Of a stretch of DNA of 64,000 nucleotides, positions 47,104-62,807 are shown piece by piece; the stretch's first letter is position 1; each line of letters starts with the position of its first letter. The translations under genes were made by a program, and so were the position numbers. The DNA is from Halorubrum trapanicum (lineage in GTDB: Archaea; Halobacteriota; Halobacteria; Halobacteriales; Haloferacaceae): positions 1-64,000 of the forward strand of contig NZ_AP017569.1 in the NCBI RefSeq assembly GCF_002355655.1, read 5' to 3'. The notes under the pieces were generated by a model. It was not told the origin of the DNA, made no database searches, and saw only the letters and a program-made list of their open reading frames with translations.

Positions 47104-47844
47104 CTATTGAAACATCTTGAGCGGCTCTGCCTGCGAGCTCTCCTCGTTCGCCTGTCGCATCCGCTCGGCGAACTGCTGTTTCGCCTCGCGGATCTCCGTC
47201 GCCTGCTCGACGAGCCCGTCGGTCGGCGTCTCGATCCCGGCGATCGGGTCGATGCCGTCGGCGATGAGCACCCGCGCCGCCTCGGGGTCGGGGAACTGCG
47301 GGTCGGACTCGACGACGAGGCCGACCGCGTCGCGATCGTTTTCGAGCGCCGCCGCGAGCATCGCGCCCGTTGGCCCGGAGACGAGCCCGGACTCGGACGG
47401 CTCGGACACCTCGGCCCGGGCCAGCGCCTCGGCGCCGTCGCCGGTCGCGATCCCGTACAGGCTCGGGGGCGCCTCGTCCTTCTCGCGGCCGAGCCCCGAC
47501 AGGAACACCGGGAACAGGTCGACCTCGTCGAACCACGAGCCGAGACACGCCGCGACCTCGGTCGCCGCGGCCGGGTTCACGGGCACGTCGCTGCGGAGCG
47601 CGACGAGGTCGTTCTCGGGGTCAGCGTACAGCCGCACCGGGGTCGTCGCGGCCGTCTCGGACTCGTGGTAGACGGCCACCGGCGGGAGCCCGTCGCAGTG
47701 GACGTTCGCGTAGTGGGTCATCTCGTGGACGTCGATCAGGTGGTCGGTCGCGATCTTCCCGACGAGGCCGACGCCGGGGAACCCCTCGATCAGGGTGGGA
47801 TCGTCCAGCGAGACGTCGTCGTCGAGGACGGAGATGCGTGCCAT
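47104..47844 (-). CDS. PAC2-family proteasome assembly chaperone homologue
   Basis: A 246-residue protein. TLIEGFPGVGLVGKIATDHLID is the family signature, followed by LSGLGREKDE and SGLVSGPTGAMLAAAL. The end is a charged helix (EQATEIREAKQQFAERMRQA). The usual ATP-grasp-like PAC2 fold assists 20S proteasome assembly in other organisms; in haloarchaea the function is inferred. The ATG at 47844 is chosen; 21 upstream in-frame residues are Arg-rich and not conserved in style. Confidence 0.87.
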   Translation of the reverse strand: MARISVLDDDVSLDDPTLIEGFPGVGLVGKIATDHLIDVHEMTHYANVHCDGLPPVAVYHESETAATTPVRLYADPENDLVALRSDVPVNPAAATEVAACLGSWFDEVDLFPVFLSGLGREKDEAPPSLYGIATGDGAEALARAEVSEPSESGLVSGPTGAMLAAALENDRDAVGLVVESDPQFPDPEAARVLIADGIDPIAGIETPTDGLVEQATEIREAKQQFAERMRQANEESSQAEPLKMFQ

Positions 47845-47991
47845 GCGCGCCCGTACGCCCGGGCCGGACCTAAAGGTGCGGCGCAGGCAGCTCCGGGGGC
47901 GGGACACGCGGCGGGTCCGGGGGTGAGACGCGCGGCGGATCCCTCGTTCGAGTCCCGAAACCGTCTAACGGCCCGCCGCGAAAGGAGGACC

Positions 47992-48924
47992 ATGAATCCG
48001 CTCGACCGATACGAGCCGCTCGTCGACGACGTCGACGCGTTCCGGGCGGCGTGCGACCGGCCCCTCCCCTCGGTCGTGCGCACGAACGGCATCGCGGCGA
48101 CCCCGGCCCGCGTCCGCGAGGCGTTCGACGACGAGGGCGTCGCCTACGAGCCGGTCGACTGGCGCGACGGCCTCTTCCGGCTCCCCGACGGGAACCCCGG
48201 CGGAAACTGGCCGTACGTCCACGGCTGGACCCACGGGCAGGAGGAGGTGTCCGTCCTACCGACGCTCGCGCTCGACCCGCGGCCGGGCGAGCGCGTCTGG
48301 GACGCCTGCGCGGCCCCCGGCAGCAAGACGACCCAGATCGCGGACGCGATGGACGACGAGGGCACCGTCGTCGCCAATGACAACAACCTCGGGCGGCTCT
48401 CCGCGCTCCGGCACAACGCCGAGCGGCTGGGGATCACGAACGCGATCGTCACGAATCAGGACGCGCGCAACTTCTCGACGAAGTCGCTCGCGTTCGACGA
48501 GTTCGACCGCGCGCTCGTGGACGCGCCCTGCTCCTGCGAGGGCACCTGTCGCAAGAACCCGGACGTCTTGGACGAGTGGACGCTCGACCACGTCCGCGCC
48601 GTCGCGGGGATCCAGAAGGGGGTGCTGGCCCGCGCCGTCCAGGCGACCCGTCCGGGCGGGGTCGTCGTCTACTCGACGTGTACGTTCGCGCCCGAGGAGA
48701 ACGAGGCGGTCCTCGACCACGTCCTCGCGAACGAGGACTGCGAACTGGTCGAGTTCGACCTCCCGCTCGACACCGACCCCGGCGTGACCGAGTGGGACGG
48801 CGAGGCGTACGACGAGTCGGTGACGCGCGCGAAGCGGATCTACCCGCACCGCAACGACACGGGCGGCTTCTTCTGCGCGAAGCTGCGCGTGGGCGGGAAC
48901 AAAAACACGGGGGTCGGAGCGTGA
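47992..48924 (+). CDS. NSUN/RsmB-type RNA cytosine-C5 methyltransferase
   Basis: A 310-residue SAM-dependent enzyme modifying tRNA or rRNA cytosine. The SAM motif is WDACAAPGSKTTQIA. The two catalytic cysteines are Cys180 in DAPCSCEGTC (motif IV) and Cys230 in YSTCTFAPEENEAVL (motif VI). A strong Shine-Dalgarno GGAGG at 47984-47988 lies 4-8 bp before the ATG, matching the 16S tail and fixing the start, although the frame is open far upstream. Its TGA overlaps the GTG start of the next gene, so the two are coupled. Confidence 0.93.
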   Translation: MNPLDRYEPLVDDVDAFRAACDRPLPSVVRTNGIAATPARVREAFDDEGVAYEPVDWRDGLFRLPDGNPGGNWPYVHGWTHGQEEVSVLPTLALDPRPGERVWDACAAPGSKTTQIADAMDDEGTVVANDNNLGRLSALRHNAERLGITNAIVTNQDARNFSTKSLAFDEFDRALVDAPCSCEGTCRKNPDVLDEWTLDHVRAVAGIQKGVLARAVQATRPGGVVVYSTCTFAPEENEAVLDHVLANEDCELVEFDLPLDTDPGVTEWDGEAYDESVTRAKRIYPHRNDTGGFFCAKLRVGGNKNTGVGA

Positions 48925-49451
48925 CCGACGGCGCCCCCACCAACGACGGCCAGCAGTTCGATCGCCTCCCCGAGACGCCCGCAGACCGAGAGGTCGAGGG
49001 GCGCGCGAGTCGCGAAGAGGTCCTCGACTGGTGGGACGAGCGGTTCGGGATCGAGCGGGTGGTGTTCGAGGAATACAGCTTCTGGGAGAAGGGCGCCGGA
49101 AAGATCTGGATCTTCAACGGCGAGGCGACGGACCCGAGCGAGGTCGAGGCCGTCGGGATGACGTTTCTCCGGACGCGACAGGAGCACTGGAAGCCGACCG
49201 GGCGGGCGGTCTCGCGGTTCGGATCGCGCGCGACGAAGAACGTGATCGAGCTGGACCCCGAGCAGGCGTCTCGGTTCGCTGCCGGGGAGGATCAGGAGTT
49301 GCCGGAGTGGGACGGCGACTGGGGCTACCTGATCGCGACTCACGAGGTTGCCGGCGAGTCGGTGCCGATCGGCGTGGGGCTGTATTTATACGACGAACTG
49401 CGCTCCGTGGTGCCGAAAGGGAGTCGAGCGGACCTGCCGGTCGTCGAGTGA
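48921..49451 (+). CDS. Partner protein of the RNA methylase, PUA-like (DUF7122-type)
   Basis: A 176-residue protein starting at a GTG that overlaps the upstream TGA by 4 bp (GTGA), the usual coupling arrangement. The N-terminal part (RASREEVLDWWDERFGI and FWEKGAGKIWIFNG) resembles the helical/ferredoxin-like part preceding PUA domains. The C-terminal RATKNVIELDPEQASRFAAGED, then WDGDWGYLIATHEVAGE, resembles a PUA RNA-binding fold. In several archaeal and eukaryotic enzymes this PUA domain is fused to the methylase, so this may be the split form. The family name is from memory. Confidence 0.72.
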   Translation: MTDGAPTNDGQQFDRLPETPADREVEGRASREEVLDWWDERFGIERVVFEEYSFWEKGAGKIWIFNGEATDPSEVEAVGMTFLRTRQEHWKPTGRAVSRFGSRATKNVIELDPEQASRFAAGEDQELPEWDGDWGYLIATHEVAGESVPIGVGLYLYDELRSVVPKGSRADLPVVE

Positions 49452-49479
49452 CGGATCGCGTTCGCACGTCGATTTACCC

Positions 49480-49878
49480 CTTATAAATGGCTGATTTTGG
49501 ATCGGCTATGAACACTTCTCAAACCACAATCGCTCGTTTATAAACAGTTGCTCACGGACCGTCGGTGAACACCTCCAAAGCTCCAGCCGCTTATTTATAA
49601 ATAGCCAACTGTAGATCGACGGCGAACACCTTCAAATCCCCAGCCGCTCGCTTATAAATGACTGATCGCGGATCGACGGCGAACACCTTCAAAGCCCCAG
49701 CCGCTCGCTTATAAATGACTGATCGCGGATCGACGGCGAACATCTTCAAAGCCCCAGCCGCTCGCTTATAAATGACTGATCGCGGATCGACGGCGAATAC
49801 CGCCAAAGCCCCAGCCGCTCGCTTATAAATGACTGATCGCGGATCGACGGCAAATACCGCCAAAGCCCCAGCCGCGAG
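49480..49878. repeat. 57-bp tandem repeat array with TATA-like boxes
   Basis: Seven units of exactly 57 bp start at 49480, 49537, 49594, 49651, 49708, 49765 and 49822. Each has a TTATAAA box, a GATCGACGGCGAACACC-like middle and CAAAGCCCCAGCCGCTCG at its end. Units 4-7 are nearly identical; units 1-3 are progressively diverged. The CAAAGCCCCAGCCG end is the same sequence that forms the left edge of the structured element at 49862, so the array looks like reiteration of that edge. The period is a multiple of three, which leaves a minus-strand frame open, but it starts only at TTG and is not credible as a protein. Confidence 0.9.
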
Positions 49879-50105
49879 GCCGCCGTACGCTCGTTGCGCT
49901 CCTCAGTCGCTCGCTTCGCTCGCTCCCTCCGGTGCTTACGTCGCCTACGGCGGCCTCGCGGCTGCCCCTTTGAGTCCCACCGGACCGCAACCGCACGGCA
50001 CCTCACCCCTCCCCAGCCTCGTCGCGGCCGCTTAAAAAGCGGCCGCGACTCCCTCGCGCGGGCGACTCGCGCCCTGCGGGCGCTCGTCGGCACGCGCCAC
50101 CGCAC
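49862..50105 (+). repeat. Structured dispersed element, copy A
   Basis: A GC-rich 244-bp segment found in three copies. Stem 1 pairs 49869-49887 with 49946-49964 (19 bp, perfect). Stem 2 pairs 50021-50033 with 50037-50049 (13 bp, loop AAA). Stem 3 pairs 50069-50074 with 50078-50083. Unpaired segments shared with the other copies include CCCCTTTGAGTCCCACC (49965-49981) and CTCCCCAGCCTCGTC before stem 2. It lies between the coupled methylase-partner gene and the 3' end of bax1, directly joined to the 57-bp array. Strand is given by convention only; the transcribed strand is unknown. Confidence 0.85.
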
Positions 50106-50118
50106 CGATTTAAATATC

Positions 50119-51636
50119 CTACTCGGACTTCTCCCGAACCGTTCCCCCGCCGAGCCCCTCCCACTCGACGCGGTACCCGAGCCGCGAGAGCGCGGCGCTC
50201 GCGTCGTCGAGCCCGTACTCGTCGAGGACCGCCTCGGCCTCCGAGAGCGCCATCCCGGGCTCGATTTCCTCGGCGAGCGCCTCCAACACCGCGGGTCGCA
50301 CGAGCGTCCGCCCGATGCGCTCGTGGTCGGGGAACGACACCCCCTCGATCGCCTCGACGCCGACTCCTCGCTCGGCGGCGAGGTCGTCGAGTCCGATCGC
50401 GTCGGCGTCGGGCGAGAGGGAGTCGGGGAGGTCGGCGGCCGCCTCGGCGACGAACTCGGCCTCGTACTCGCGGAGCACGTCGACCACGTCCTTCACCCGG
50501 ACCGTTCCGGAGTAGGTGACGACGCGGTGGTCGCGGGCCGCGATCTCCTCGCCGACGCCGAGGCTCTCGTCGACGGCCACGAGGAGGTCCACGTCCTCCA
50601 CGTCCGCGAGCTGTCCGAGCTTCTTTTCGACGTACTCGGGGGTCCAGAAGCCCATCACCTCGAAGAAGAGCCTGAAGTCCGCGTGGTCGTAGTCGAACGC
50701 GAAGTCCGGGATCATCACGCTCGCCCCGGTTTCGAGCGGCTCGGGTTCGCGCACCAGAGTCCAGTCGAGGTCGAGCCCGCGGACGCGCCCGGCGAAGTCG
50801 GCCTCGACCCCGCTGTCGAAGTCGGGCTCCGCGACGGGCTCGACGTCCGGCACGGTCACGTCGCCGTCCGAGAGGCGCATCGTGCGCTCGCGGCCGCGGT
50901 CGTCGATCGCCGCCTCCAGCGACCACTCCGCCGACTCCGCGACCGTCCGGAGCAGCCGCGCGAAGGCGGTCCCGTAGCGTCGCGTGCGCGAGAACAGCCG
51001 GTCCGGGCCGGTGACGACGAGTTCGCGGCCCTCCGGAGTCTTCTCGACCTCGTACATCAAGCGCAGGCGCTTGACGGCCGAGACGAGCCGCTTCGGGTCG
51101 TTCGACCGCACCCGGACCTCGGTGGCGTCGAAGAGCGCGGTCTGGGCCAGGGAGAGGTCGTACTGCTCCAGCAGGGCGTCGGGGTCCCAGCGCACGTCGG
51201 CGTCGACGAGGACCCGCTCGACGTCGCGGTCGGCGTACAGCGAGGCGTCCACCGCATCGGACTCGATCCCGAGCGCGTCGGCCGCGCGCTCCACCGCGGT
51301 CTCCCGCTCCGCCTCGCTGGCGACGCCGACCGCCTCCGCGGCCTCGAACGCGGCCCGCCGGACGCGACGCGGCGGGACCGGGGCCCGCGTCTCGAACTCG
51401 CACTCGCGCTCGACGAGCGCCGCGAGCCCCCGGACGAGTTTGAAGTCGCCGTTCCGGGTGGCGGCGTCGGCCTCCAAGTCCGCCAGCGCGTCGTCGAGGT
51501 CGCCGCGCCGCTCGCCGACGTGCGACTCGAACGTCCCGAGGACGCGGGCCGCGAGCGGGCGGTGTTCCCGGCCGGTGAACTGCGGGCGGTAGCCGCCGCC
51601 CGCCCGGGAGACGCGCAGGAGGTCCTTGCGTAGCAC
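50119..51636 (-). CDS. bax1: Bax1-type nuclease (DUF790), XPB-associated
   Basis: A 505-residue protein of the DUF790 family, which includes archaeal Bax1, the nuclease partner of the XPB/Rad25 helicase in repair. YDLSLAQTALFDATEVRV and LFSRTRRYGTAFARLL are family-like. The nuclease core is MIPDFAFDYDHADFRLFFEVMGFWTPEYVEKK, with a PD-(D/E)XK-type Asp, Glu and Lys. The C-terminal region is helical. The start codon is GTG. No helicase gene is adjacent on either side: copies A and B of the structured element, in inverted orientation, occupy the flanks. Confidence 0.85.
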   Translation of the reverse strand: MLRKDLLRVSRAGGGYRPQFTGREHRPLAARVLGTFESHVGERRGDLDDALADLEADAATRNGDFKLVRGLAALVERECEFETRAPVPPRRVRRAAFEAAEAVGVASEAERETAVERAADALGIESDAVDASLYADRDVERVLVDADVRWDPDALLEQYDLSLAQTALFDATEVRVRSNDPKRLVSAVKRLRLMYEVEKTPEGRELVVTGPDRLFSRTRRYGTAFARLLRTVAESAEWSLEAAIDDRGRERTMRLSDGDVTVPDVEPVAEPDFDSGVEADFAGRVRGLDLDWTLVREPEPLETGASVMIPDFAFDYDHADFRLFFEVMGFWTPEYVEKKLGQLADVEDVDLLVAVDESLGVGEEIAARDHRVVTYSGTVRVKDVVDVLREYEAEFVAEAAADLPDSLSPDADAIGLDDLAAERGVGVEAIEGVSFPDHERIGRTLVRPAVLEALAEEIEPGMALSEAEAVLDEYGLDDASAALSRLGYRVEWEGLGGGTVREKSE

Positions 51637-51673
51637 GGGGCGGGGTACGCCGCGCCCGGCCTAAAACGAGCGG

Positions 51674-51692
51674 GTTCGGTTCCCCCCCGAAC
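51674..51692. repeat. Small hairpin upstream of bax1
   Basis: GTTCGG and CCGAAC are perfect 6-bp arms around TTCCCCC in the leader region between the bax1 start and element copy B. Too short to assign a role. Confidence 0.35.
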
Positions 51693-51700
51693 GTGCGGTC

Positions 51701-51962
51701 GCGGTGGCGCGTGCCTGCGAGCGGCCGCCATCGGCGGCCGCGAGACAGCACCGCGCGAGGGAGTCAGTCGCCGGAGCAAAGCGACGGCGACTGACGAGGC
51801 TGGGGAGGGGAGAGGTGTTGTGCGGTCGTGGTCGGGTGGGACTCGAAGGGGCAGCCGGGAGGCGGGCGCAGGCGAAGTAAGGACCGCAGGGCGGGAGCGA
51901 GCGAAGCGAGCGACCAACCGAGGACCGCAGCGAGCGTGCGCCCGCCTCCCGGCTGGGGCTTC
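51701..51962 (-). repeat. Structured dispersed element, copy B (inverted)
   Basis: The same element as copy A on the opposite strand. Stem 1 pairs 51852-51870 with 51937-51955 (19 bp, perfect). Stem 2 pairs 51763-51773 with 51785-51795 (11 bp). Stem 3 pairs 51721-51729 with 51733-51741 (9 bp, 3-nt loop). Relative to copies A and C the stem bases differ but pairing is retained. Only a single edge motif is present and there is no 57-bp reiteration. It lies upstream of bax1 and upstream of elp3, in a divergent gap. Confidence 0.85.
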
Positions 51963-52165
51963 GGTGGTGTCGCTCGCCGATTTGTCAGATCTGAAGCCCT
52001 CGTATAGCCGAGCGGTCGAGAACTCGAATTTCGTTTCGCCGAGGCGGGAAACGCGGCGTTGAGCGGTCGGAGCCGTGGCGCCGACTCCCGCTCTGCTGCC
52101 GACGCGCACCCCTCTCACGTATCGGTGCGACACGCTTAACTCCGAAACCCGTCGATCGGAGCGTA
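51963..52165. other. elp3 upstream region
   Basis: About 200 bp without a gene. A TATA-like GCTTAACTC near 52133-52141 lies about 30 bp before the elp3 ATG. No other motif stands out. Confidence 0.45.
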
Positions 52166-53917
52166 ATGAGCACCGACGCGGCGAGTGACGGGGACGCCGG
52201 TAGCGAGTCCGACGATGCCGCCGGAGATGGCACCGCCGACCCCGCCGACTCCGAGGCGTTCGTCCGCACCTGCGAGCACCTCGTCGAGCGCATCCTCGAC
52301 GGCGAGATCGAGCGCGACGACCTCGAACGCGCCAAGCTCGACGCCTGCTCGGAGTTCGGCTCCCCGAAGGTGCCGAAGAACACCGAGATCCTGGATCACG
52401 CCCCGTCCGAGGCGCGCGACGACGTGATCGAGGTGGTCCAGCGCAAGCCGGTCCGGACCGCCTCCGGCGTCTCCCCCGTCGCGATCATGACCTCGCCGGA
52501 GCTGTGCCCGCACGGAAAGTGCCTCTACTGTCCCGGCGGGCCGGCCTCGGAGTTCTCCTCGGCGCAGTCGTACACGGGCCACGAGCCCGCCGCCGCGCGC
52601 GGCGAGCAGAACGACTACGACCCGTACGGGCAGGTCACGCTCCGGCTCGAACAGCTCCGGAAGATCGGCCACCCGGTCGACAAGGTGGAGCTGATCCTGA
52701 TGGGCGGGACGATGACCGCGCGCTCGCACGACTACCAGGAGTGGTTCGTCAAGCGCGCGCTCCAGGCGATGAACGACTACGACCTCGACAAGGAGCCCGA
52801 GCCGGCCGAGGGCGAGTCGTTCGCGCCGGACCCCGAGGCGACCGAGTTCGAGTACCTCGAAGACGTGATCGCCGAGAACGAGACGAACGAGATCCGCAAC
52901 ATCGGCACCACCTTCGAGACGAAGCCGGACTGGTGCGACCCCGAGCAGATCGACCGCATGCTCGACCTCGGCGGCACGAAGGTCGAGGTCGGCGTCCAGA
53001 CCACCTACGAGCGGATCAACCGCGAGATGCACCGCGGCCACGGCAACGAGGCCTCCCGGAACGCCAACCGCCGCCTGCGCGACGCCGCGTTCAAGGTCGG
53101 CTTCCACATGATGCCCGGGCAGCCGGGCATGACCCGGGAGATGTGCTTAGAGGACTTCCGGCAGCTGTTCGACAACCCCGACTGGCGGCCCGACTACCTG
53201 AAGATCTACCCGACTCTCGTCGTCGAGGGGACTCGCGTGTACGACCGCTGGCGCCGCGACGACTTCGACCCGCTCACGAGCGAGGAGGCGGCCGACCTCG
53301 TCGCCGACGTGATGGACCTGATCCCGAAGTACACGCGGCTCCAGCGCGTCCAGCGCGACATCCCTGCGGACTTCATCGACGCGGGCGTCCAGAAGTCGAA
53401 CCTCCGACAGCTCGCCGCCCAGCGCGCCGAGGAGAAGGGGATCGTCCAGCGGGACGTCCGCGCCCGCGAGGTCGGCCACAACGACGCCGACCCGGACCCC
53501 GACGACGTCGAACTCGACGTGCTCACCTACGAGGCCGGCGGCGGCACGGAGCACTTCATCTCCTTCGAGGACCCAGTCCGGGACCTGCTCGTCGGGTTCT
53601 GTCGCCTGCGGTTCCCCTCGTTTGCCCCCGACCAGCCCGGCGCGCCGGGCACCGAGGGCGACCCGATCCGCCCGGAACTCGAAGACGCCGCGCTGGTCCG
53701 CGAGCTCCACGTCTACGGCAACGAGGTCGGCATCGGCGGCGACGGCGACTGGCAGCACCAGGGGTACGGCACGAAGCTCCTCGAACGCGCCGAGGAGCTC
53801 TCCCGCGAGGCGGGCTACGACAAAGTCGCGGTCATCTCGGGCATCGGCGCCCGCGAGTACTACCGCAACAAGCTCGGCTACCGGCAGGACGGGCCGTACG
53901 TGTCGAAGCGGCTGTGA
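52166..53917 (+). CDS. elp3: Elp3-type tRNA U34 carboxymethyl-synthesising enzyme
   Basis: A 583-residue radical-SAM plus GNAT acetyltransferase that modifies wobble uridine. An acidic N-terminal lead (residues 1-30) is followed by the tRNA-binding helical part. The 4Fe-4S cluster motif is CPHGKCLYC (Cys114, 119, 122) with PGGP after it. Core segments include LILMGGTMTARSHDYQEWFV, GVQTTYERINREMHRGH and FHMMPGQPGMTREM. The C-terminal GNAT domain has WQHQGYGTKLLERAEEL and ISGIGAREYYRNKLGY. In archaea a single protein performs the whole reaction. It is followed by rqcH after 70 bp. Confidence 0.96.
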   Translation: MSTDAASDGDAGSESDDAAGDGTADPADSEAFVRTCEHLVERILDGEIERDDLERAKLDACSEFGSPKVPKNTEILDHAPSEARDDVIEVVQRKPVRTASGVSPVAIMTSPELCPHGKCLYCPGGPASEFSSAQSYTGHEPAAARGEQNDYDPYGQVTLRLEQLRKIGHPVDKVELILMGGTMTARSHDYQEWFVKRALQAMNDYDLDKEPEPAEGESFAPDPEATEFEYLEDVIAENETNEIRNIGTTFETKPDWCDPEQIDRMLDLGGTKVEVGVQTTYERINREMHRGHGNEASRNANRRLRDAAFKVGFHMMPGQPGMTREMCLEDFRQLFDNPDWRPDYLKIYPTLVVEGTRVYDRWRRDDFDPLTSEEAADLVADVMDLIPKYTRLQRVQRDIPADFIDAGVQKSNLRQLAAQRAEEKGIVQRDVRAREVGHNDADPDPDDVELDVLTYEAGGGTEHFISFEDPVRDLLVGFCRLRFPSFAPDQPGAPGTEGDPIRPELEDAALVRELHVYGNEVGIGGDGDWQHQGYGTKLLERAEELSREAGYDKVAVISGIGAREYYRNKLGYRQDGPYVSKRL

Positions 53918-53987
53918 GCGTCACCCGTTCGCCGGACCCGCACCCACAACGACACGCCTTTTTCCGGCCCGCCGGTTGCTATGGTGT

Positions 53988-56186
53988 ATGGACCAGAAGC
54001 GGGAGCTGTCGAGCATCGACCTCGCCGCGCTCGTCACCGAACTCAATCGGTACGAGGGCGCGAAGGTCGACAAGGCGTACCTCTACGACGACGACCTGCT
54101 CCGGCTGAAGCTTCGCGACTTCGACCGCGGCCGCGTCGAGCTCATGATCGAGGTCGGGGACATCAAACGGGCCCACGCCGCCGACCCGGACCACGTCGCG
54201 GACGCGCCGGGACGCCCGCCGAACTTCGCGAAGATGCTGCGGAACCGCATGTCGGGCGCGGACTTCGCGGGCGTCGAGCAGTACGAGTTCGACCGCATCC
54301 TCACCTTCGAGTTCGAGCGCGAGGACCAGAACACCACGCTCGTCGCCGAGCTGTTCGGCCAGGGGAACGTCGCCGCGCTCGACGAGACGGGCGAGGTGAT
54401 CGGGGCGCTGTCGACGGTGCGGCTCAAGTCCCGCACGGTCGCCCCCGGCTCGCAGTACGAGTACCCGGCCTCGCGGCTGAACCCGCTCGACGTGAGCCGC
54501 GGCGCGTTCGACCGCCACATGCGCGAGTCGGACAGCGACGTCGTCCGGACGCTCGCCACCCAGCTCAACCTCGGCGGCCTGTACGCCGAGGAGGTGTGTA
54601 CCCGGGCCGGCGTGCCGAAGGAGACGCCGATCGAGGAGGCGACCGACGACCAGCTCGGCGCGCTCCACGACGCGCTCGCCCGGATCGACGAGCGGCTCCG
54701 CTCGGGCGACGTCGACCCCCGCGTGTACGAGGAGTCCGTCGACGGCGAGGAGGACGGAGAGTCGAGCGACGAGGAGCCCCGCGTCGTCGACGTGACGCCC
54801 TTCCCGCTCGCGGAGCACGAGGGCCTGCCGAGCGTCGGCTTCGACTCCTTCAACGCCGCCGTCGACGAGTACTTCTACCGGCTCGGCAGCGAGGAGACCG
54901 ACGAGGGCGAGGCCCCGGCGGACGCGGGCGCGTCCCGCCCGGACTTCGAAGAGGAGATCGCCAAACAGGAGCGGATCATCGAACAGCAGAAGGGAGCGAT
55001 CGAGGGGTTCGAGGAGCAGGCGCAGGCGGAACGGGAGCGCGCCGAGCTGCTGTACGCGCACTACGACCTCGTCGACGAGGTGCTTTCGACGGTGCGGGAG
55101 GCCCGCGCAAACGAGGTGCCGTGGGACGAGATCGCGGAGACGCTCGACGCCGGCGCCGAGCGCGGCATCCCGGCCGCGGAGGCCGTCGTCGACGTCGACG
55201 GCGGAGAGGGAACGGTGACGGTCGAACTCGAAGAGGAAGGGGACGACGGGGGGACGGTGACGGTCGAACTCAACGCGAGCGAGGGCGTGGAGGTCAACGC
55301 CGACCGCCTCTACCGGGAGGCGAAGCGCGTCGAGGAGAAGAAGGCGGGCGCGCAGGAGGCGATCGAGTCGACCCGCGAGGAGCTGGAGGCCGTCAAGGAG
55401 CGGAAGGCGGAGTGGGAGGAGCAGCAGGCGGCCGACGACGGTGGCGAGGGCGACGCCGACGGTGCGGACGGCGAGGGCGACGACGAGGAGTACGAGACCG
55501 ACTGGCTCTCGCGCTCCTCGATCCCGATCCGGAGCCCGGACGACTGGTTCGAGCGGTTCCGCTGGTTCCACACGTCGACGGGCTACCTCGTCATCGGCGG
55601 GCGCAACGCCGACCAGAACGAGGAGCTGGTGAAAAAATACATGAGCAAACACGACCGGTTCTTCCACACGCAGGCCCACGGCGGGCCGGTGACCCTGCTG
55701 AAGGCCGCCGGGCCCTCCGAGTCGGCGGACCCCGTCGACTTCTCCGAGGAGACGCTGCGGGAGGCCGCGCAGTTCGCCGTTTCCTACTCCTCGGACTGGA
55801 AGGACGGCCGCGGCGCGGGCGACGCGTACATGGTCGAACCCGATCAGGTGTCGAAGACGCCCGAGAGCGGCGAGTACATCGAGAAGGGGAGTTTCGTGAT
55901 CCGCGGCGACCGGACGTACTTCGAGGACGTGCCCTGCCGGATCGCCGTCGGCGTCCAGTGCGAGCCGGTCACGCGAGCCATCGGCGGGCCGCCGTCGGCC
56001 ATCGTCGACCGCGCGGCCGCGCACGTCACCTTCGAACCGGGGATGTACGCGCAGAACGACGCCGCGATGATGGCCTACCGGAACCTCAAAGAGCGGTTCA
56101 CCGACCAGTCGTTCGTCCGCAAGGTCGCCAGCGCGGACCTGCTCCAGGAGTTCCTCCCGCCGGGCGGGTCGGACATCGTGGATTGA
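53988..56186 (+). CDS. rqcH: Ribosome rescue factor RqcH (NFACT protein)
   Basis: A 732-residue NFACT-family protein related to eukaryotic Rqc2/NEMF and bacterial RqcH. It acts on obstructed 60S/50S subunits and recruits tRNA to extend stalled chains. NFACT-N covers about residues 1-220 (SSIDLAALVTELNRYEGAKVDKAYLY, then FGQGNVAALD). A coiled-coil region (EEEIAKQERIIEQQKGAIEGFEEQAQ and later) follows. The NFACT-R domain is WFHTSTGYLVIGGRNADQNEELVKKYM with FFHTQAHGGPV. The frame is open upstream, but MDQKRELSSIDLAAL is the natural start. An Ala/Asp/Glu-rich low-complexity stretch precedes NFACT-R. Confidence 0.94.
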   Translation: MDQKRELSSIDLAALVTELNRYEGAKVDKAYLYDDDLLRLKLRDFDRGRVELMIEVGDIKRAHAADPDHVADAPGRPPNFAKMLRNRMSGADFAGVEQYEFDRILTFEFEREDQNTTLVAELFGQGNVAALDETGEVIGALSTVRLKSRTVAPGSQYEYPASRLNPLDVSRGAFDRHMRESDSDVVRTLATQLNLGGLYAEEVCTRAGVPKETPIEEATDDQLGALHDALARIDERLRSGDVDPRVYEESVDGEEDGESSDEEPRVVDVTPFPLAEHEGLPSVGFDSFNAAVDEYFYRLGSEETDEGEAPADAGASRPDFEEEIAKQERIIEQQKGAIEGFEEQAQAERERAELLYAHYDLVDEVLSTVREARANEVPWDEIAETLDAGAERGIPAAEAVVDVDGGEGTVTVELEEEGDDGGTVTVELNASEGVEVNADRLYREAKRVEEKKAGAQEAIESTREELEAVKERKAEWEEQQAADDGGEGDADGADGEGDDEEYETDWLSRSSIPIRSPDDWFERFRWFHTSTGYLVIGGRNADQNEELVKKYMSKHDRFFHTQAHGGPVTLLKAAGPSESADPVDFSEETLREAAQFAVSYSSDWKDGRGAGDAYMVEPDQVSKTPESGEYIEKGSFVIRGDRTYFEDVPCRIAVGVQCEPVTRAIGGPPSAIVDRAAAHVTFEPGMYAQNDAAMMAYRNLKERFTDQSFVRKVASADLLQEFLPPGGSDIVD

Positions 56187-56262
56187 ACGGGTCGAGCTGA
56201 CTGACGGCAAAGCCGATCGCCCGAGCGCGACGTTTTCAAGCCTCCGCGACGGAGGAGGGCGC

Positions 56263-56655
56263 ATGGCCTTCGAATCGCTGCCGGAGGGGTGGCGGCTGTG
56301 GAACGAGGAGCCCAGCGGGCGGGCGATCCTCGTCTACCGCCCCGACGTCTTCGGGGGCGGCGACCTCCCCGACGAGTGTCTCCCGACCATCTACCTGACG
56401 AACGGCGCCCGGAACGCGCGCCCCGGCTCGGGCCAGTACGCGACCGACGAGTGGCACGTCGTCTGCTTCTTGGAGCCCGAGATCGAGGCGGTCTCGGAGA
56501 CGTACGAGAGCCGCGAGGCGGGCGCGGCCGGCGCGGTCGACGTCGCGGAGCGGTTCGTCGCCGGCGAGATCGATTATCGGGCGGCGTATCAGGTGCCCCG
56601 AGAGGAGTACTTCGCGCGCCTCGACGAGTTCGTCGGCGGCGAGGAGTCCGCGTGA
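56263..56655 (+). CDS. DUF5820-type small protein
   Basis: A 130-residue acidic protein, beginning MAFESLPEGWRLWNEEPSGRAILVYRPDVFGG and continuing CLPTIYLTNGARNARPGSGQYATDEWHVVCFLE. The mixed beta fold is followed by a helical end (VAERFVAGEIDYRAAYQVPREEYFARLDEFV). A strong Shine-Dalgarno GGAGGAGGG (56251-56259) lies 4 bp before the ATG, and a TATA-like TTTTCAAG lies near 56233-56240. The DUF name is recalled, not verified; function unknown. Confidence 0.72.
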   Translation: MAFESLPEGWRLWNEEPSGRAILVYRPDVFGGGDLPDECLPTIYLTNGARNARPGSGQYATDEWHVVCFLEPEIEAVSETYESREAGAAGAVDVAERFVAGEIDYRAAYQVPREEYFARLDEFVGGEESA

Positions 56656-56720
56656 GCGGCGGTGTCCGAACCGCGTGACTGCGCGGCGACGCGAGGGCGT
56701 TTGTATCCACGATTACGCAT

Positions 56721-56737
56721 AACTCGGACCGAGTTAC
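56721..56737. promoter_or_regulatory. Perfect dyad upstream of purF (candidate operator)
   Basis: TAACTCGG-A-CCGAGTTA is a perfect 8-bp inverted repeat about 27 bp before the purF TATA element (TTTTTAT, 56764-56770). It sits in the upstream activation/repression zone of the purF promoter, so a regulator of purine synthesis could bind here (inference). Confidence 0.55.
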
Positions 56738-56795
56738 GAGTAGATACGCCACGAACACGAGGATTTTTATCGCCGCCCGCCCCACCGTCGCGTAC

Positions 56796-58295
56796 ATGAA
56801 CGCCGGTGGGGACTACGGCGGCGACGAACCGCGGGAGAAGTGCGGCGTCGTCGGCGTCTCGCTCGCGGATCGGGAGGCCGCGCGACCGCTGTACTACGCG
56901 CTGTACGCGCTCCAACACCGCGGCCAGGAGTCGGCCGGGATCGTCACGCACGACGGATTCCAACAGCACAGCCACGTCGAGCGCGGCCTCGTCGGCGACG
57001 CGTTCGAAGAGGGGGACCTCGCGTCGCTGTCGGGCGGCACCGGCATCGGTCACGTGCGCTACCCGACCGCCGGCAGCCTCGACAAGAGCTGCGCGCAGCC
57101 GTTCTCCGTCTCTTTCAAATCCGGCTCGCTCGGGCTGTCGCACAACGGCAACCTCGTCAACGCCGACGAGGTGCGCGAGGAGCTGGCCGCGGCGGGCCAC
57201 GCCTTCACCTCCGACGGCGACACCGAGGTGATCGCCCACGACCTCGCGCGCAACCTCCTCGAAGAGGACCTCGTGCGGGCGGTCAAACACACGATGAACC
57301 GCATCCACGGCTCCTACTCGCTGGCGATCACCCACGACGACACCGTCCTCGGCGTCCGCGACCCGCTCGGCAACCGCCCGCTGTGTCTCGGGAAGATCGA
57401 CGGCGGCTACGTCCTCGCCAGCGAGTCCGCCGCCATCGACACGCTCGACGGCGAGCTGATCCGCGACGTGCGACCCGGCGAACTCGTCGTCTTGGATCCC
57501 GACGGCACCGGCTACGACACGTATCAGCTGGTCGAGCGCGACGCGACCGCCCACTGCTTCTTCGAGCACGTCTACTTCGCCCGCCCCGACTCCGTCATCG
57601 ACGAGAGCCTCGTGTACGAGGTGCGCCGGAAGCTGGGTCGGAAGCTCTGGGAGGAGTCCGGCGTCGAGTCCGACGTGGTGATGCCGGTGCCGGACTCCGG
57701 CCGCGCGTTCGCCTCCGGCTACGCGGACGCCGCGGGCGAGACCACTCCCGATGGCGAGCCGCGGGCCGCCGACGACGGCGGGGTGGAGTTCGCCGAGGGG
57801 CTGATGAAGAACCGCTACGTGGGCCGGACGTTCATCATGCCCACGCAGGACGAGCGGGAGCGCGCGGTCCGGCTGAAGCTGAACCCGATCCGCTCGACGG
57901 TGGAGGGGAAGTCGGTCACGATCATCGACGACTCCATCGTCCGCGGAACGACCTCGACGCAGCTCGTCGAGCTCGTCCGCGAGGCGGGCGCCGAGGAGGT
58001 CCACCTCCGGATCGGCGCGCCGCCGATCCTCGCGCCCTGCTACTTCGGCATCGACATGGCGACGCGCGAGGAGCTGATCGCCGCCGACGCCTCGACCGAG
58101 GAGATCCGGCAGGAGGTGGGCTCGGACACGCTTTCGTACCTCTCCATCGACGCGGTCGCGGAGGCGCTCGGCGAGAGCCGCGCGGACCTCTGTCTCGGCT
58201 GCGTCACCGGCGAGTACCCCTTCGACGTGGAGGGCGAGGCGACCGACCGCGACGTCGACGCGCCGGTCTCGGATCCGACGCCGGCGGACGACTGA
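56796..58295 (+). CDS. purF: Amidophosphoribosyltransferase
   Basis: A 499-residue enzyme converting PRPP and glutamine to phosphoribosylamine, the first committed step of purine synthesis. Cys16 in EKCGVVGVSLADRE is the glutaminase nucleophile, implying removal of a 15-residue propeptide. The PRPP loop is TIIDDSIVRGTTSTQL. Cysteines in HCFFEHVYF, APCYFGIDM and DLCLGCVTGEYP match the 4Fe-4S type of the enzyme. A short acidic insert occurs near residues 310-330 and an acidic tail ends the protein. TATA box TTTTTAT lies 29 bp before the ATG (leaderless), with a perfect dyad upstream. Confidence 0.97.
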   Translation: MNAGGDYGGDEPREKCGVVGVSLADREAARPLYYALYALQHRGQESAGIVTHDGFQQHSHVERGLVGDAFEEGDLASLSGGTGIGHVRYPTAGSLDKSCAQPFSVSFKSGSLGLSHNGNLVNADEVREELAAAGHAFTSDGDTEVIAHDLARNLLEEDLVRAVKHTMNRIHGSYSLAITHDDTVLGVRDPLGNRPLCLGKIDGGYVLASESAAIDTLDGELIRDVRPGELVVLDPDGTGYDTYQLVERDATAHCFFEHVYFARPDSVIDESLVYEVRRKLGRKLWEESGVESDVVMPVPDSGRAFASGYADAAGETTPDGEPRAADDGGVEFAEGLMKNRYVGRTFIMPTQDERERAVRLKLNPIRSTVEGKSVTIIDDSIVRGTTSTQLVELVREAGAEEVHLRIGAPPILAPCYFGIDMATREELIAADASTEEIRQEVGSDTLSYLSIDAVAEALGESRADLCLGCVTGEYPFDVEGEATDRDVDAPVSDPTPADD

Positions 58296-58429
58296 GCGCT
58301 TCGTTCGAACCCGGCGCTCGCGGACCATGAACCCCGTTTTTCCGACTCGACCCCGCACACGTTCGGCGCCGCTCCGACCGCTCGGGACGTATCGGGGGCT
58401 TAAATACGCTCACGGTCAGACGTGCGAAC

Positions 58430-59512
58430 ATGACACGGAACGCCGACGCCGCCGAAGACGACGCCGCGTCGATGAGCCGCCGCGGGTTCTTCCGCGCCGG
58501 GGCCGCCGGGGCGGCGGTCGCCGCGGGCGTCGCGGCCGGAAGCGGGACCGCCGCCGCGCAGTACGACGGCTGGCTGGACGACGTGAGCAACTACGACGGC
58601 ACCCACGACTACCGCGGACAGGACGAGGTCACCGTTCAGGTCGGCGCGGGCGAGAACGGGCTCCGGTTCGGCCCGGCCGCGATCCTCATCGACCCGGGCG
58701 CGACGGTCGTCTGGGAGTGGACCGGCCAGGGCGGCGGCCACAACGTCGTCGCGCAAGACGGCACCTTCGACAGCGGGTCAGCGGTCGCGGAGGCGGGGAC
58801 CACCTTCGAGTACACCTTCGAGGACGCGAGCGAGGGCGACGTGTTCCGGTACGCCTGCGAACCCCACCGGTCGATCGGCATGAAGGGCGCCGTCGCGGTC
58901 GGCGCCGTCGACGACGACCTCGTCGACCCGCAGGCGGAGGGCGGCGACGGGGGCGACGGCGGCTCCGGCGACGCGGCCGGATACGGCGACTGGTTCGAGA
59001 ACGTCGGCAACTACGAGGGGACGCGAGACCTTCGCGGGCAAGACGAGGTCACCGTCTCCGTCGGCGCGGGCGAGAACGGGCTTCGGTTCGACCCGCCCGC
59101 GATCCTGGTCGATCAGGGGACGACGGTCGTCTGGGAGTGGACCGGCGAGGGTGGCGGCCACAACGTCGTCGCGGAGGACGGCACCTTCGACAGCGGGTCC
59201 GCGGTCGCGGAGGCGGGGACCACCTTCGAGTACACCTTCGAGGACGCGAGCGAGGGCGACGTGTTCCGGTACGCCTGCGAACCCCACCGGTCGATCGGCA
59301 TGAAGGGCGCCGTCGCGGTCGGCGCCGTCGACGACGACCTCATCGGCGGCGAGGGAGGGTCCGGGGGCTCCGGCGGCGACGGGGGCTCCGGCGGCGGCAG
59401 CGGGCTCTCCGCGAGCGACATCGGGACGCTGGCGCTCGGCTTCGGCTTCGCCGGCGCGCTGCTCGTCCCGCTGTTCTACGCGGCACACCGGAAGGCCGAG
59501 CGGAACGCGTAG
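58430..59512 (+). CDS. Two-domain halocyanin (blue copper protein) with Tat signal and C-terminal anchor
   Basis: A 360-residue exported electron carrier. The Tat signal is SRRGFFRAGAAGAAVAAGVAAG, cleaved near AAAQ. Two plastocyanin-like domains follow (about 45-160 and 185-300). Each has GGGHNVV (His ligand) and YACEPHRSIGMKG (Cys, His and Met ligands), the type I copper set. A Gly/Ser linker leads to one transmembrane segment (about 333-353). The two domains share a 141-bp identical stretch (see findings). TATA box CTTAAATA (58399-58406) is 27 bp from the ATG. The DUF420 gene beside it suggests a respiratory context. Confidence 0.93.
   Translation: MTRNADAAEDDAASMSRRGFFRAGAAGAAVAAGVAAGSGTAAAQYDGWLDDVSNYDGTHDYRGQDEVTVQVGAGENGLRFGPAAILIDPGATVVWEWTGQGGGHNVVAQDGTFDSGSAVAEAGTTFEYTFEDASEGDVFRYACEPHRSIGMKGAVAVGAVDDDLVDPQAEGGDGGDGGSGDAAGYGDWFENVGNYEGTRDLRGQDEVTVSVGAGENGLRFDPPAILVDQGTTVVWEWTGEGGGHNVVAEDGTFDSGSAVAEAGTTFEYTFEDASEGDVFRYACEPHRSIGMKGAVAVGAVDDDLIGGEGGSGGSGGDGGSGGGSGLSASDIGTLALGFGFAGALLVPLFYAAHRKAERNA
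58781..58921 (+). repeat. Internal identical repeat, copy 1
   Basis: This 141-bp segment of halocyanin domain 1 is identical, base for base, to 59201-59341 in domain 2, exactly 420 bp (140 codons) downstream. Sequence on either side has diverged. Confidence 0.93.
59201..59341 (+). repeat. Internal identical repeat, copy 2
   Basis: Second copy of the 141-bp identical stretch in the halocyanin gene. It covers the Cys-His-Met copper loop and the strand before it. Confidence 0.93.
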
Positions 59513-59539
59513 TCGACTCTCTCTTTCTGCCGCGTTCGG

Positions 59540-60100
59540 TCAGTAGACGTGGTACAGCAGCAGGTACACGCCGATTCCCATCGTGAAGGAGATCAGCCAG
59601 AGGACGGCGCCGACCATGCCGACCTGCGCGTGTCGCGTCCGATAGAGGTCCTCGTACGGCCGGGTCGCGGCCAGGAAGAGCGCGTGGAAGACGAAGGGGA
59701 CGCAGACGATCGCGAGCAGGATGTGGATCGCTAAGAAGGGGAGGTAGACGTACGAGTAGACGGCCTCGGGGCCGGGGAACTCGGTGGTCCCGACGTGGAT
59801 CAGCCGGTAGAGGTACGCGCCGAGGAACGCGGCGAACAGCGCGAAGGAGGTCACCATGAAGTTGCGGTGGCGCTTCACGTTCCCGCGAGAGATCTCACGC
59901 CAGCCGAGGGTGATCGTCGCGATGGCGGTGAGGGAGACGGCGGCGTTGAAGTGCGGGATCGCGGCGAGGACGGCGTCGCTCGCGCGGGGCAGCAGCGAAC
60001 TCGGGATCGCGCCGCCCACCGCGCTGAAGACGAGCGCGAGCGCGACGACGGAGGCGACGGCGGTCAGGACGGAGACGTTCTCGCGGGCCCAATCGGACAT
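59540..60100 (-). CDS. DUF420 membrane protein
   Basis: A 186-residue protein with about five transmembrane segments, starting MSDWARENVSVLTAVASVVALAL. LTAIATITLGWREISRGNVKRHRNFMVTSF and FLAIHILLAIVCVPFVFHALFLA match the DUF420 family (bacterial relatives often lie with cytochrome oxidase or heme-handling genes). Conserved His residues in KRHRNF, AIHI, FHAL and TRHAQ could bind heme or metal (inference). The ATG at 60100 is chosen; the upstream frame is Arg/Thr-rich noise. It is convergent with the halocyanin gene. Confidence 0.88.
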   Translation of the reverse strand: MSDWARENVSVLTAVASVVALALVFSAVGGAIPSSLLPRASDAVLAAIPHFNAAVSLTAIATITLGWREISRGNVKRHRNFMVTSFALFAAFLGAYLYRLIHVGTTEFPGPEAVYSYVYLPFLAIHILLAIVCVPFVFHALFLAATRPYEDLYRTRHAQVGMVGAVLWLISFTMGIGVYLLLYHVY

Positions 60101-60278
60101 ACTCGTGCGGTGGGACGCGACCCCCAAACGCGTGCCGGTTGCGGTCGAGGCGGTTCGGGTGTGGTCGAGGCGTTCGGGTAGTGGTCGACAAGTTCCCGTT
60201 GCGGTCGCCGAGTCGCGGTGGCGTTCCGCCGCCCGGTGGTCTGCGAAACCCCGCCACGCTCCCGCCAAATGGAAGGGC

Positions 60279-60290
60279 TTTTAATTAGGG
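60279..60290 (+). promoter_or_regulatory. tRNA-Leu promoter (TATA)
   Basis: CTTTTAATTAGG is the most AT-rich segment of this gap and lies 35 bp before the tRNA, giving a short 5' leader. Confidence 0.65.
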
Positions 60291-60324
60291 GAAGGGTACG
60301 TGGAGACGCGACAGAACACCGCGA

Positions 60325-60409
60325 GCGTGGGTAGCCAAGCCAGGCCAACGGCGCAGCGTTGAGGGCGCTGTCCTGTAGAGGTCCGCCGGTTCAAATCCGG
60401 TCCCACGCA
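60325..60409 (+). tRNA. tRNA-Leu (anticodon GAG)
   Basis: An 85-nt class II tRNA. Acceptor arms GCGTGGG and CCCACGC pair fully, with discriminator A. The anticodon stem CAGCG/CGCTG encloses TTGAGGG, giving GAG, which reads CUC/CUU leucine codons. A long variable arm (TCCTGTAGAGGT) and the T-arm GCCGG-TTCAAAT-CCGGT confirm the type. CCA is not encoded and no intron is present. Confidence 0.95.
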
Positions 60410-60533
60410 TCGCACGGGGTACACCCCCACGATGCACGGTGTTGTCTACACGACAGCACCCACGCACAATTCCTTTCGATGCTACGTGAGAAGTGACGAG
60501 TACGATCGGAACGCTGTGATCGTGAACACCGCC

Positions 60534-60590
60534 AAAGCCCCAGCCGTTCGCTTATAAATGATTACTTGCGAACCGGCGGTGAACACCCCC
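60534..60590. repeat. Single 57-bp unit flanking element copy C
   Basis: AAAGCCCCAGCCG at 60534 recurs at 60591, again exactly 57 bp apart. Between them lie TTATAAATGA and GGCGGTGAACACC as in the array at 49480-49878. This is the same unit, present once. Confidence 0.85.
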
Positions 60591-60831
60591 AAAGCCCCAG
60601 CCGCGAGGGCGGCGCACACTCGTTGCGCTCCTCGCTCGCGTTGCTCGCTGCGGTGCTTACGTCGTCTGCGCCGCCCTCGCGGCTGCCCCTTTGAGTCCCA
60701 CCCCGCACAGCACCGCACCTCACACCTCCCCAGCCTCGTCGGTCGCCGTCGCTTCGCTTGGCGACCGACTCCCTCGCGCGTGCTGTCTCGCGGCCGCCGG
60801 GGGCGGCCGCTCGCAGGCACGCGCCACCGCA
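60591..60831 (+). repeat. Structured dispersed element, copy C
   Basis: Third copy of the element. Stem 1 pairs 60598-60616 with 60667-60685 (19 bp, perfect). Stem 2 pairs 60738-60747 with 60760-60769 (10 bp). Stem 3 pairs 60790-60798 with 60802-60810 (9 bp, loop GGG). It lies between tRNA-Leu and gatE, on the plus strand. A second TATA-like TTTATAAATGAC follows directly at 60838-60849. The rest of 60410-60923 holds no gene apart from the gatE promoter (CTTTTAG, 60892-60898). Confidence 0.85.
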
Positions 60832-60923
60832 CAGCCATTTATAAATGACATCAGTGCTCACGATGTCTCGTCGCTCGCGCGAACTGCCACCCTTTTAGTC
60901 GCGCGCCGTCGGAGTGAGGCGTA

Positions 60924-62807
60924 ATGAGTACGGACGCGACCCCCGAGTACGACTACGAGGAGCTGGGGCTCGTCGCCGGGCTGGAGATCCACCAGCAGCT
61001 CGACACCGAGACCAAGCTGTTCTGCGACTCCCCCACCGTCGAGCGCGACCCCGAGGAGTCCGACCGGTCGATCACCCGCAAGCTCCACCCGACGAAGAGC
61101 GAGCTGGGCGAGCTCGACGACGCCGCGATGGAGGAGAGCCGCATCGACCGCGAGTTCACCTACCTCGCGTACGACACCACCTGCCTCGTCGAGGAGGACG
61201 ACGAGCCGCCCCGGCGCGTCGACGGCGAGGCGCTCTCGGTCGCGCTCCAGATCGCCGACCTGCTCGACCTCTCCGTCGTCGATCAGGCCCACGTCATGCG
61301 GAAGCTCGTCATCGACGGCTCGAACACCTCCGGCTTCCAGCGCTCGATCCTCCTCGGACAGGACGGCGAGATCGAGACGGAGTCGGGGTCGGTGTCGGTC
61401 GTCGACCTCATGCTCGAAGAGGAGTCCGCCAAGCGGGTCGAGGAGACCGACGACGGCGTCGTCTACTCGCTCGACCGACTCGGCGTCCCCCTCGTCGAAA
61501 TCGGGACTGGCCCGGACATCCGGAGCCCCGAGGGCGCGCGGCAGGCGGCCGAGCGGATCGGGATGCTGCTGCGCTCGACGGGCGCGGTCAAGCGCGGGCT
61601 CGGCACGATCCGTCAGGACGTGAACGTCTCCATCGCCGACGGCGCCCGCGTCGAGGTGAAGGGCGTTCAGGACCTCCAGGGGATCGAGGACATCGTCCGC
61701 GGCGAGGTCGGACGGCAGGCGGAGCTGCTCGAAATCCGCGACGAGCTCCGCGAGCGCGACGCGAGCGTCGGCGACGTCGCCGACGTGACCGACGTCTTCG
61801 CCGACACGGAGTCGGGGGTCATCCGCGGCGCGCTCGACTCGGGCGGGAAGGTGACCGCCGTCCCGCTGTTCGGCTTCGACGGGCTCGTCGGCCGCGAGAT
61901 CCAGCCCGACCGCCGGCTCGGCACCGAGTTCTCGGACCACGCGAAGCGCCACGGCGCGGGCGGCATCTTCCACACCGACGAACTGCCGGCGTACGGCGTC
62001 ACCGAGGCGGAGGTCGACGCGCTCCGCGACGCGGTCGGCGCGGGCGAGGGCGACGCGGTCGCCATCGTCGCGGCCGATCCCGAGACCGCCGACCTCGCGG
62101 TCGAGGCGGCCGCCGAGCGCGCGGAGACCGCGATCGAGGGCGTCCCCGAGGAGACCCGCGGCGCGAACGACGACGGGACCACGCGCTACCTCCGGCCGCT
62201 GCCGGGCGCCGCGCGGATGTACCCCGAGACGGACGTGCCGCCGGTCGAGCCGGACCCCTCCGACGTGGAGACGCCCGAACTCCTCGACGAGAAGGCCGAG
62301 CGGTACGAGGCGGAGTTCGGGCTCGACGCCGGCCTCGCCGAGCAGGTCGCGTTCGGCCAGCGGTTCCCCCTCTTCGAGGCCGCGGTCGAGCGCGGCGTCG
62401 ACCCCACCTTCGCAGCGACGACGCTGGAGTCGACGACGACCGAGATCCGGCGCGACGGCGCGCCGGTCGAGAACCTCACCGACGACCACTTCCTCGCCCT
62501 CTTCGACCTCGTCGAGGACGGCGACCTCGCGAAGGAGGGCGTCCCCGAGGTGCTGACGACGCTCGCGGAGAACCCCGATCTGTCGGCGAGCGAGGCGGTC
62601 GAGGAGGCCGGACTCTCGGGCGTGAGCGAGGACGAGGTGCGCGAGGCGGTCGTCGAGGTCGTCGAGCGCAACGCCGACCAGATCGAGGCCGAGGGGATGG
62701 GCGCGTTCTCCGGGCTGATGGGCGAGGCGATGGGCGCCCTCCGCGGGAAGGCCGACGGCGAGGTCGTCTCCGACGTGTTACGCGAGGAGATCGGCAAGCG
62801 GTCGTAG
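60924..62807 (+). CDS. gatE: Glu-tRNA(Gln) amidotransferase subunit E
   Basis: A 627-residue archaeal subunit that binds misacylated Glu-tRNA(Gln) and, with GatD, converts it to Gln-tRNA(Gln). LVAGLEIHQQLDTETKLFCDSPT is the GatB/E signature, followed by RKLVIDGSNTSGFQRS and RLGVPLVEIGTGPDI. A central insert (about residues 290-410, FDGLVGREIQPDRRLGTEFSDHAK) is the AspRS-type GAD domain specific to GatE. The C-terminal helical YqeY-like tail binds tRNA. TATA box CTTTTAG lies 29 bp before the ATG. gatD is not in the window. Confidence 0.97.
   Translation: MSTDATPEYDYEELGLVAGLEIHQQLDTETKLFCDSPTVERDPEESDRSITRKLHPTKSELGELDDAAMEESRIDREFTYLAYDTTCLVEEDDEPPRRVDGEALSVALQIADLLDLSVVDQAHVMRKLVIDGSNTSGFQRSILLGQDGEIETESGSVSVVDLMLEEESAKRVEETDDGVVYSLDRLGVPLVEIGTGPDIRSPEGARQAAERIGMLLRSTGAVKRGLGTIRQDVNVSIADGARVEVKGVQDLQGIEDIVRGEVGRQAELLEIRDELRERDASVGDVADVTDVFADTESGVIRGALDSGGKVTAVPLFGFDGLVGREIQPDRRLGTEFSDHAKRHGAGGIFHTDELPAYGVTEAEVDALRDAVGAGEGDAVAIVAADPETADLAVEAAAERAETAIEGVPEETRGANDDGTTRYLRPLPGAARMYPETDVPPVEPDPSDVETPELLDEKAERYEAEFGLDAGLAEQVAFGQRFPLFEAAVERGVDPTFAATTLESTTTEIRRDGAPVENLTDDHFLALFDLVEDGDLAKEGVPEVLTTLAENPDLSASEAVEEAGLSGVSEDEVREAVVEVVERNADQIEAEGMGAFSGLMGEAMGALRGKADGEVVSDVLREEIGKRS

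Follow-up and report, generated by a model that had tools for sequence, protein, structure and literature searches.

A 57-bp tandem array in Halorubrum trapanicum as the likely iterated left border of a dispersed hairpin-forming haloarchaeal repeat

Bacterial REP/BIME sequences are repetitive extragenic palindromes that carry a GTAG or CGTC tag (PMC3733652, PMC2817692). In haloarchaea, the PATEs of Haloquadratum walsbyi have near-terminal palindromes and relate to IS605 ends, and the Haloquadratum SMR-A elements of about 110 bp have inverted ends and no target duplication (PMC3119063). The class I intergenic repeats of halovirus HF2 are 56–58 bp long, are proven promoters and have a TATA-to-start spacing of 26, which matches that of haloarchaea (PMC8707807). 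Here, we describe a tandem array in the window, a stretch of 64,000 nt of Halorubrum trapanicum DNA (NZ_AP017569.1, positions 1 to 64,000), together with the repeat family to which it is joined. We consider it likely, with a probability of roughly 0.6, that this array arose by iteration of the left border of a REP/BIME- or PATE-like haloarchaeal repeat, which is dispersed, intergenic and able to form hairpins. The literature on haloarchaeal repeats, REPs and MITEs contained related work only and no description of the element, and neither form of the core sequence was found in the openly available main texts searched. The element family appears to be undescribed and unannotated.

The array beside the first element copy of the window (copy A, Table 1) was recovered by TRF with a period of 57 bp and 6.9 copies at 49480–49875 (83% matches, 0% indels, score 468), and inspection of the units agreed: the seven units reported in an earlier note on this DNA are real, with TTATAAA close to the start of all seven. 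The 21-mer CTTATAAATGACTGATCGCGG occurs four times with up to three mismatches, compared with 0.00 expected in shuffles, and a chance origin of the array is excluded. A CRISPR-like array and a coding array were also ruled out, as the units are near-identical to each other and contain many stops. The same note had stated that an edge motif, CAAAGCCCCAGCCG, closes each unit. This was slightly overstated: only the four units nearest the element carry the motif unchanged, units 2 and 3 each differ from it at one position (CAAAGCTCCAGCCG and CAAATCCCCAGCCG), and the outermost unit retains a badly decayed version (CAAACCACAATCGC). Its proposed origin from the left edge of the element does hold, since CAAAGCCCCAGCCG represents the first 14 nt of the 30-bp arm of hairpin 1 (49861–49890, pairing with 49943–49972). 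Identity is 91–98% among the four proximal units and 68–79% among the older ones. As noted earlier, a single unit accompanies copy C; copy B, with one arm and no TATA unit, has none.

Table 1. Features of the array and of the three element copies in the window
Feature	Position	Strand	Details
Tandem array, seven 57-bp units	49480–49878	+	Hairpin 5' arm copy (CAAAGCCCCAGCCG) near each unit end
Unit starts in the array	49480, 49537, 49594, 49651, 49708, 49765, 49822	+	
Hairpin 1, copy A	49861–49972	+	CAAAG / CCC / CAGCCG...stem...CGGCTG / CCC / CTTTG; DNA fold z = -5.45
Conserved core CCCCTTTGAGTCCCACC	49965–49981	+	3' arm end plus unpaired foot GAGTCCCACC
Hairpin 2, copy A	50021–50049	+	13-bp perfect stem, 3-nt loop
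Hairpin 3 and right end (GCACGCGCCACCGC), copy A	50055–50103	+	
AT-rich box TTTAAAT	50109–50115	not assigned	Directly past the right end of copy A
Copy B of the element	51700–51963 (start approximate)	-	Single 5' arm, no 57-bp unit; core 51835–51851
Single 57-bp unit of copy C	60533–60589	+	TTATAAA inside; arms 57 bp apart
Copy C of the element	60590–60829	+	Hairpin 1 60590–60693, core 60686–60702, right hairpins to about 60829

Hairpin 1 of copy A has a long GC stem interrupted by a 3 × 3 internal loop of C residues, and the window copy is predicted to fold much more stably than shuffled sequences (z = -5.8 as RNA and about -5.5 as DNA). When Rfam covariance models were run on 47500–61500, tRNA alone reached the cut-off and no model matched the element; a tRNA-Leu(GAG) gene lies at 60325–60409, with copy C about 120 bp downstream. 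The 57-bp unit has dozens of further matches elsewhere in the same genome. The core GGCTGCCCCTTTGAGTCCCACC, allowing up to three mismatches, was found at 171 places genome-wide (92 on the plus and 79 on the minus strand), and its reversed pattern gave no match in this genome. All 171 copies reside on the main chromosome (contig 1, 2.84 Mb; P ~7e-7 if evenly spread) and none on the two smaller contigs, C2 and C3, of 245 kb together; TnpB transposon genes are present on C2, though it is free of element copies. The core also occurs in all 35 other Halorubrum genomes searched (10–178 copies each), and among the matches listed for it, nearly all named records are Halorubrum. Halorubrum copies follow a common order in which a TATA-like box, about 30 bp, GAACACCTC, hairpin 1 (mostly 104–120 nt) and GAGTCCCRCC are followed by CCTCCCCAGCCTC and two more hairpins, hairpin 2 leading over CCCTCGC to hairpin 3 and GCACGCGCCACCGC. 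Some hairpin 1 loops or stems (L087, L089, L107, L108, L059, L078, L091 and L277) contain nested palindromic modules, among them GTGGCGCTACGCGCCACGGGCAACCGGCGGCTCCGCCGCCGGT and CGAAAGGCGC...GCGCCTTTCGTGATGACGAGA, that look like small mobile repeats which have entered a palindrome. On the opposite strand, the invariant C tracts GCCCC, CCCC, GTCCC and CTCCCC read as runs of G, which may make them, together with the hairpin, G-quadruplex candidates.

The hairpin extends well beyond Halorubrum. Of 244 Halobacteria genomes, 147 contain CCCCTTTSAGTCCCRCC as an exact match, representing 47 of 75 genera, and its reversed control had no match in any of the 244. Across the class, the 5' arm starts with (C/G)AAAG-CCC, the stem is variable, the 3' arm ends with CCC-CTTT(G/C) and the foot (S)AGTCCCRCC comes next. 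The same hairpin is found in other genera, where its stems are unrelated in sequence and its outer base pair is reversed: all 219 of the 219 Halorubrum-type copies have C-G at this position, and 73 of the 74 others have G-C. Across 233 copies the CCC/CCC internal loop hardly changes, and the stem varies with compensation. Within the first ten stem pairs in other genera, 9.2 of 10 are Watson–Crick with their own partner, compared with 5.6 of 10 with swapped partners. These patterns are clear signs that pairing in the hairpin is under selection. Which strand would be the functional one could not be called by folding energy, as the G-rich strand is always more stable and shuffles explain most of the difference (24.3 versus 21.5 kcal/mol). 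Mismatches in Halorubrum, read on the C-rich strand, comprise 90 A-C and 23 G-U and lean to G-U on the G-rich strand, with 47 of the 90 A-C from one pair and copies that are not independent. As a strand call this was likewise rejected, since the lean hangs on few pairs and hairpin 2 is poorly alignable; if the element is a structured RNA, these counts may point to the G-rich strand. Inverted, BIME-like hairpin pairs occur in several genera (L328, L329, L330 and L354, and pairs in genomes G272 and G293), and none was found in this window.

Arm number differs from locus to locus, about one to seven per Halorubrum copy. Among 163 distinct copies extracted from this genome for the arm and TATA counts, 62 are single-armed and the other 101 carry two to six arms, which bears out the suggestion that unit number varies between loci. 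The commonest arm spacing is 57 bp, with minor classes of 63, 66 and 69 bp; the longer periods were observed in a CGAAGCCCC subfamily (L111 and others), L111 having five arms of 69 bp. The comparison of orthologous loci that had been proposed was made across 30 genomes for the gap that separates two genes assigned by Pfam to DUF7122 and DUF790. In five Halorubrum species this gap is 15–36 bp without a core; in most other species that keep the gene order it is 315–622 bp and holds the element in the same orientation with about one to four arms by this count, compared with six recognisable arms plus one decayed unit in this genome. Units are locally homogenised, with three identical units in each of L274, L247 and L091. 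Since direct repeats are present as well, we infer that recombination takes place between arm copies: the 14-bp arm repeats would recombine unequally, or replication would slip between them, and arm number would change as a result; a stable hairpin close by would favour such events. In this array, and in most of the long ones, the pattern agrees with the idea that units were added next to the element. As a general trend it is weak: in 15 arrays of at least four units, with the outermost unit dropped as partly flank, identity was 0.918 for the proximal and 0.86 for the distal pair (p = 0.10), and L091, in which an interior unit was amplified, runs against it. Arm arrays in further genera have periods of 54, 57, 72 and 75 bp and no TATA boxes, and another haloarchaeal family (L339) has seven arm units of 56–57 bp, again without TATA. 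This indicates that what these arrays share is the repeated arm, to which a TATA box was added in Halorubrum; contrary to what the description of TATA-like units had implied, the box does not define such arrays. In genome G120 (L337, L339 and L342), tandem repeats of about 30 bp (GGTGGTCTGCGTCACCGAGCG...) were observed on the 3' side of the hairpin too.

In the Halorubrum copies, the TATA box is a regular component. It occurs at -42 to -26 of the arm in 127 of 163 copies, compared with 0.6 expected from shuffles, lies at exactly -37 in 94 of 163 and is retained in 165 of 190 inner units. The inter-arm segment carries it, so that each duplication of a unit would multiply the box. In the main subfamily, the box TTATAAAT occupies -38 to -31 with its centre about 26 nt before a conserved GA (-9/-8); this equals the spacing of mapped haloarchaeal promoters and of the HF2 repeats (PMC8707807), and haloarchaeal promoter motifs are described in PMC4983044. 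In most copies, the spacing is like that of a core promoter directed towards the hairpin, and the units are possible candidates for promoters of the element's own transcript. That they act as weak tandem core promoters transcribing the hairpin is a tentative proposal and the least certain step of our reading. A stronger version holds that TATA drives rightward transcription of a non-coding RNA from near GAACACC and that the array was selected for its expression. This is consistent with the retention and spacing of the boxes, with the proven promoter activity of HF2 repeats of 56–58 bp and with the structure predicted for the downstream RNA. However, the BRE motif CGAAA is absent from both strands of all 163 copies, the box of the CGAAGCCCC subfamily lies 8 bp closer to the arm (-29, 13 copies), the arrays of other families have no TATA, and the pair statistics, if an RNA exists, lean to the opposite strand. 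We regard this version as unlikely. With respect to the neighbouring genes, the earlier view of each unit as a possible promoter on either strand is hard to uphold. Gene calls behind the orientation counts are heuristic; by these, 61 element sites lie between convergent, 20 between divergent and 80 between tandem genes (44 and 36), and convergent sites outnumber divergent ones significantly (p = 6e-6). Because neighbours mostly point at the element, the units are unlikely to be their promoters, and the element does not resemble a promoter island serving adjacent genes. In the manner of a REP-like hairpin, it probably has a role, or simply survives, where transcripts end between convergent genes.

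The boxes allow another explanation, namely that the element is a non-autonomous, MITE- or PATE-like unit moved in trans, with the arm array and the inverted end boxes as putative transposase binding sites. In 127 of 210 copies an inverted TATA-like box follows the right end within 30 bp, giving boxes of opposite orientation at both ends; presence and absence are clean at DUF7122–DUF790; copy number between Halorubrum genomes spans the range given above; and the nested palindromic insertions recall Haloquadratum SMRs. On the other hand, copies are highly divergent and absent from the smaller contigs, no target-site duplication was found for the element even though empty sites are known, the core is present in only five IMG/VR viral contigs, and no transposase was found paired with element copies among the Y1 and TnpB genes examined. 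None of the Y1 genes (one here and 21 loci in relatives) has an intact core nearby or paired cores on its two sides, and L371 alone holds a core, a degenerate one. TnpB genes in this genome lie 0.6–23 kb from the nearest copy, and of 30 TnpB loci three have a core (L420, L427 and L434), though not as evident paired transposon ends. Mobilisation by RAYT or IS605 was ruled out by this absence of a linked transposase, and we consider movement in trans doubtful. A phage or plasmid origin was likewise rejected, as a search of phage DNA gave no related sequence, plasmid copies are few and viral contigs number five. The units might instead be iterons for chromosome organisation or replication, with a nucleoid or partition protein on one arm and AT box per 57 bp. 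The chromosome-only distribution in this genome would agree with this, as would the regular 56–57 bp period shared by two haloarchaeal families whose spacers are unrelated, but other loci and genera use 54, 63, 66, 69, 72 or 75 bp, 62 of 163 copies are single-armed, and no strand bias was seen round the chromosome, making such a role improbable. Finally, the element could be a class-wide functional RNA or single-strand DNA signal. Its ancestral hairpin, with the invariant CCC/CCC (GGG/GGG) loop and the AGTCCCRCC foot, would then offer spare 5' arms in periodic arrays as alternative partners for the single 3' arm, and Halorubrum would have gained a promoter per arm; we hold this to be rather unlikely.

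With the array read as an iterated left border, what appeared to be a local tandem promoter array becomes part of a widespread haloarchaeal hairpin repeat family, with as many as about 178 copies in a single genome of those searched. Its natural variation, in presence or absence and in arm number at orthologous loci, is ready material for studying how hairpin repeats spread in archaea, and bears on transcript starts and ends at such repeats as well as on the growth of short-period arrays beside hairpins.

Compared with the described systems, the units are similar to HF2 class I repeats in length, AT-rich box, spacing of 26 and a host range including Halorubrum. In contrast, the viral repeats are dispersed singly upstream of viral genes, carry motifs such as CTTTAAGT and CGTCTNNTAGAG, and have no hairpin arm or tandem array; their alpha, beta and gamma motifs are absent from the 57-bp units. 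With PATEs and SMRs, compared by description, the element has in common that it is haloarchaeal, high in copy number and non-coding with small palindromic repeats nested in it, whereas no link to IS605 ends was found for it. The element is not in the tagged REP families: it is confined here to Halobacteria, has the foot AGTCCCRCC in place of a GTAG or CGTC tag, a hairpin of about 110 bp as opposed to 20–40 and copies of about 250 bp that are far longer than REPs, and has tandem 5' arm arrays but no adjoining RAYT-type transposase and no flanked Y1 (RAYT) gene. It nevertheless resembles REP/BIME in being intergenic, in exceeding 100 copies per genome, in having a palindrome with some internal positions unpaired and, to one side, a conserved foot that does not pair, in its greater frequency between convergent genes and, in some other genera, in forming inverted dimers; it shares with these repeats a high-copy palindrome whose covarying stem is under selection.
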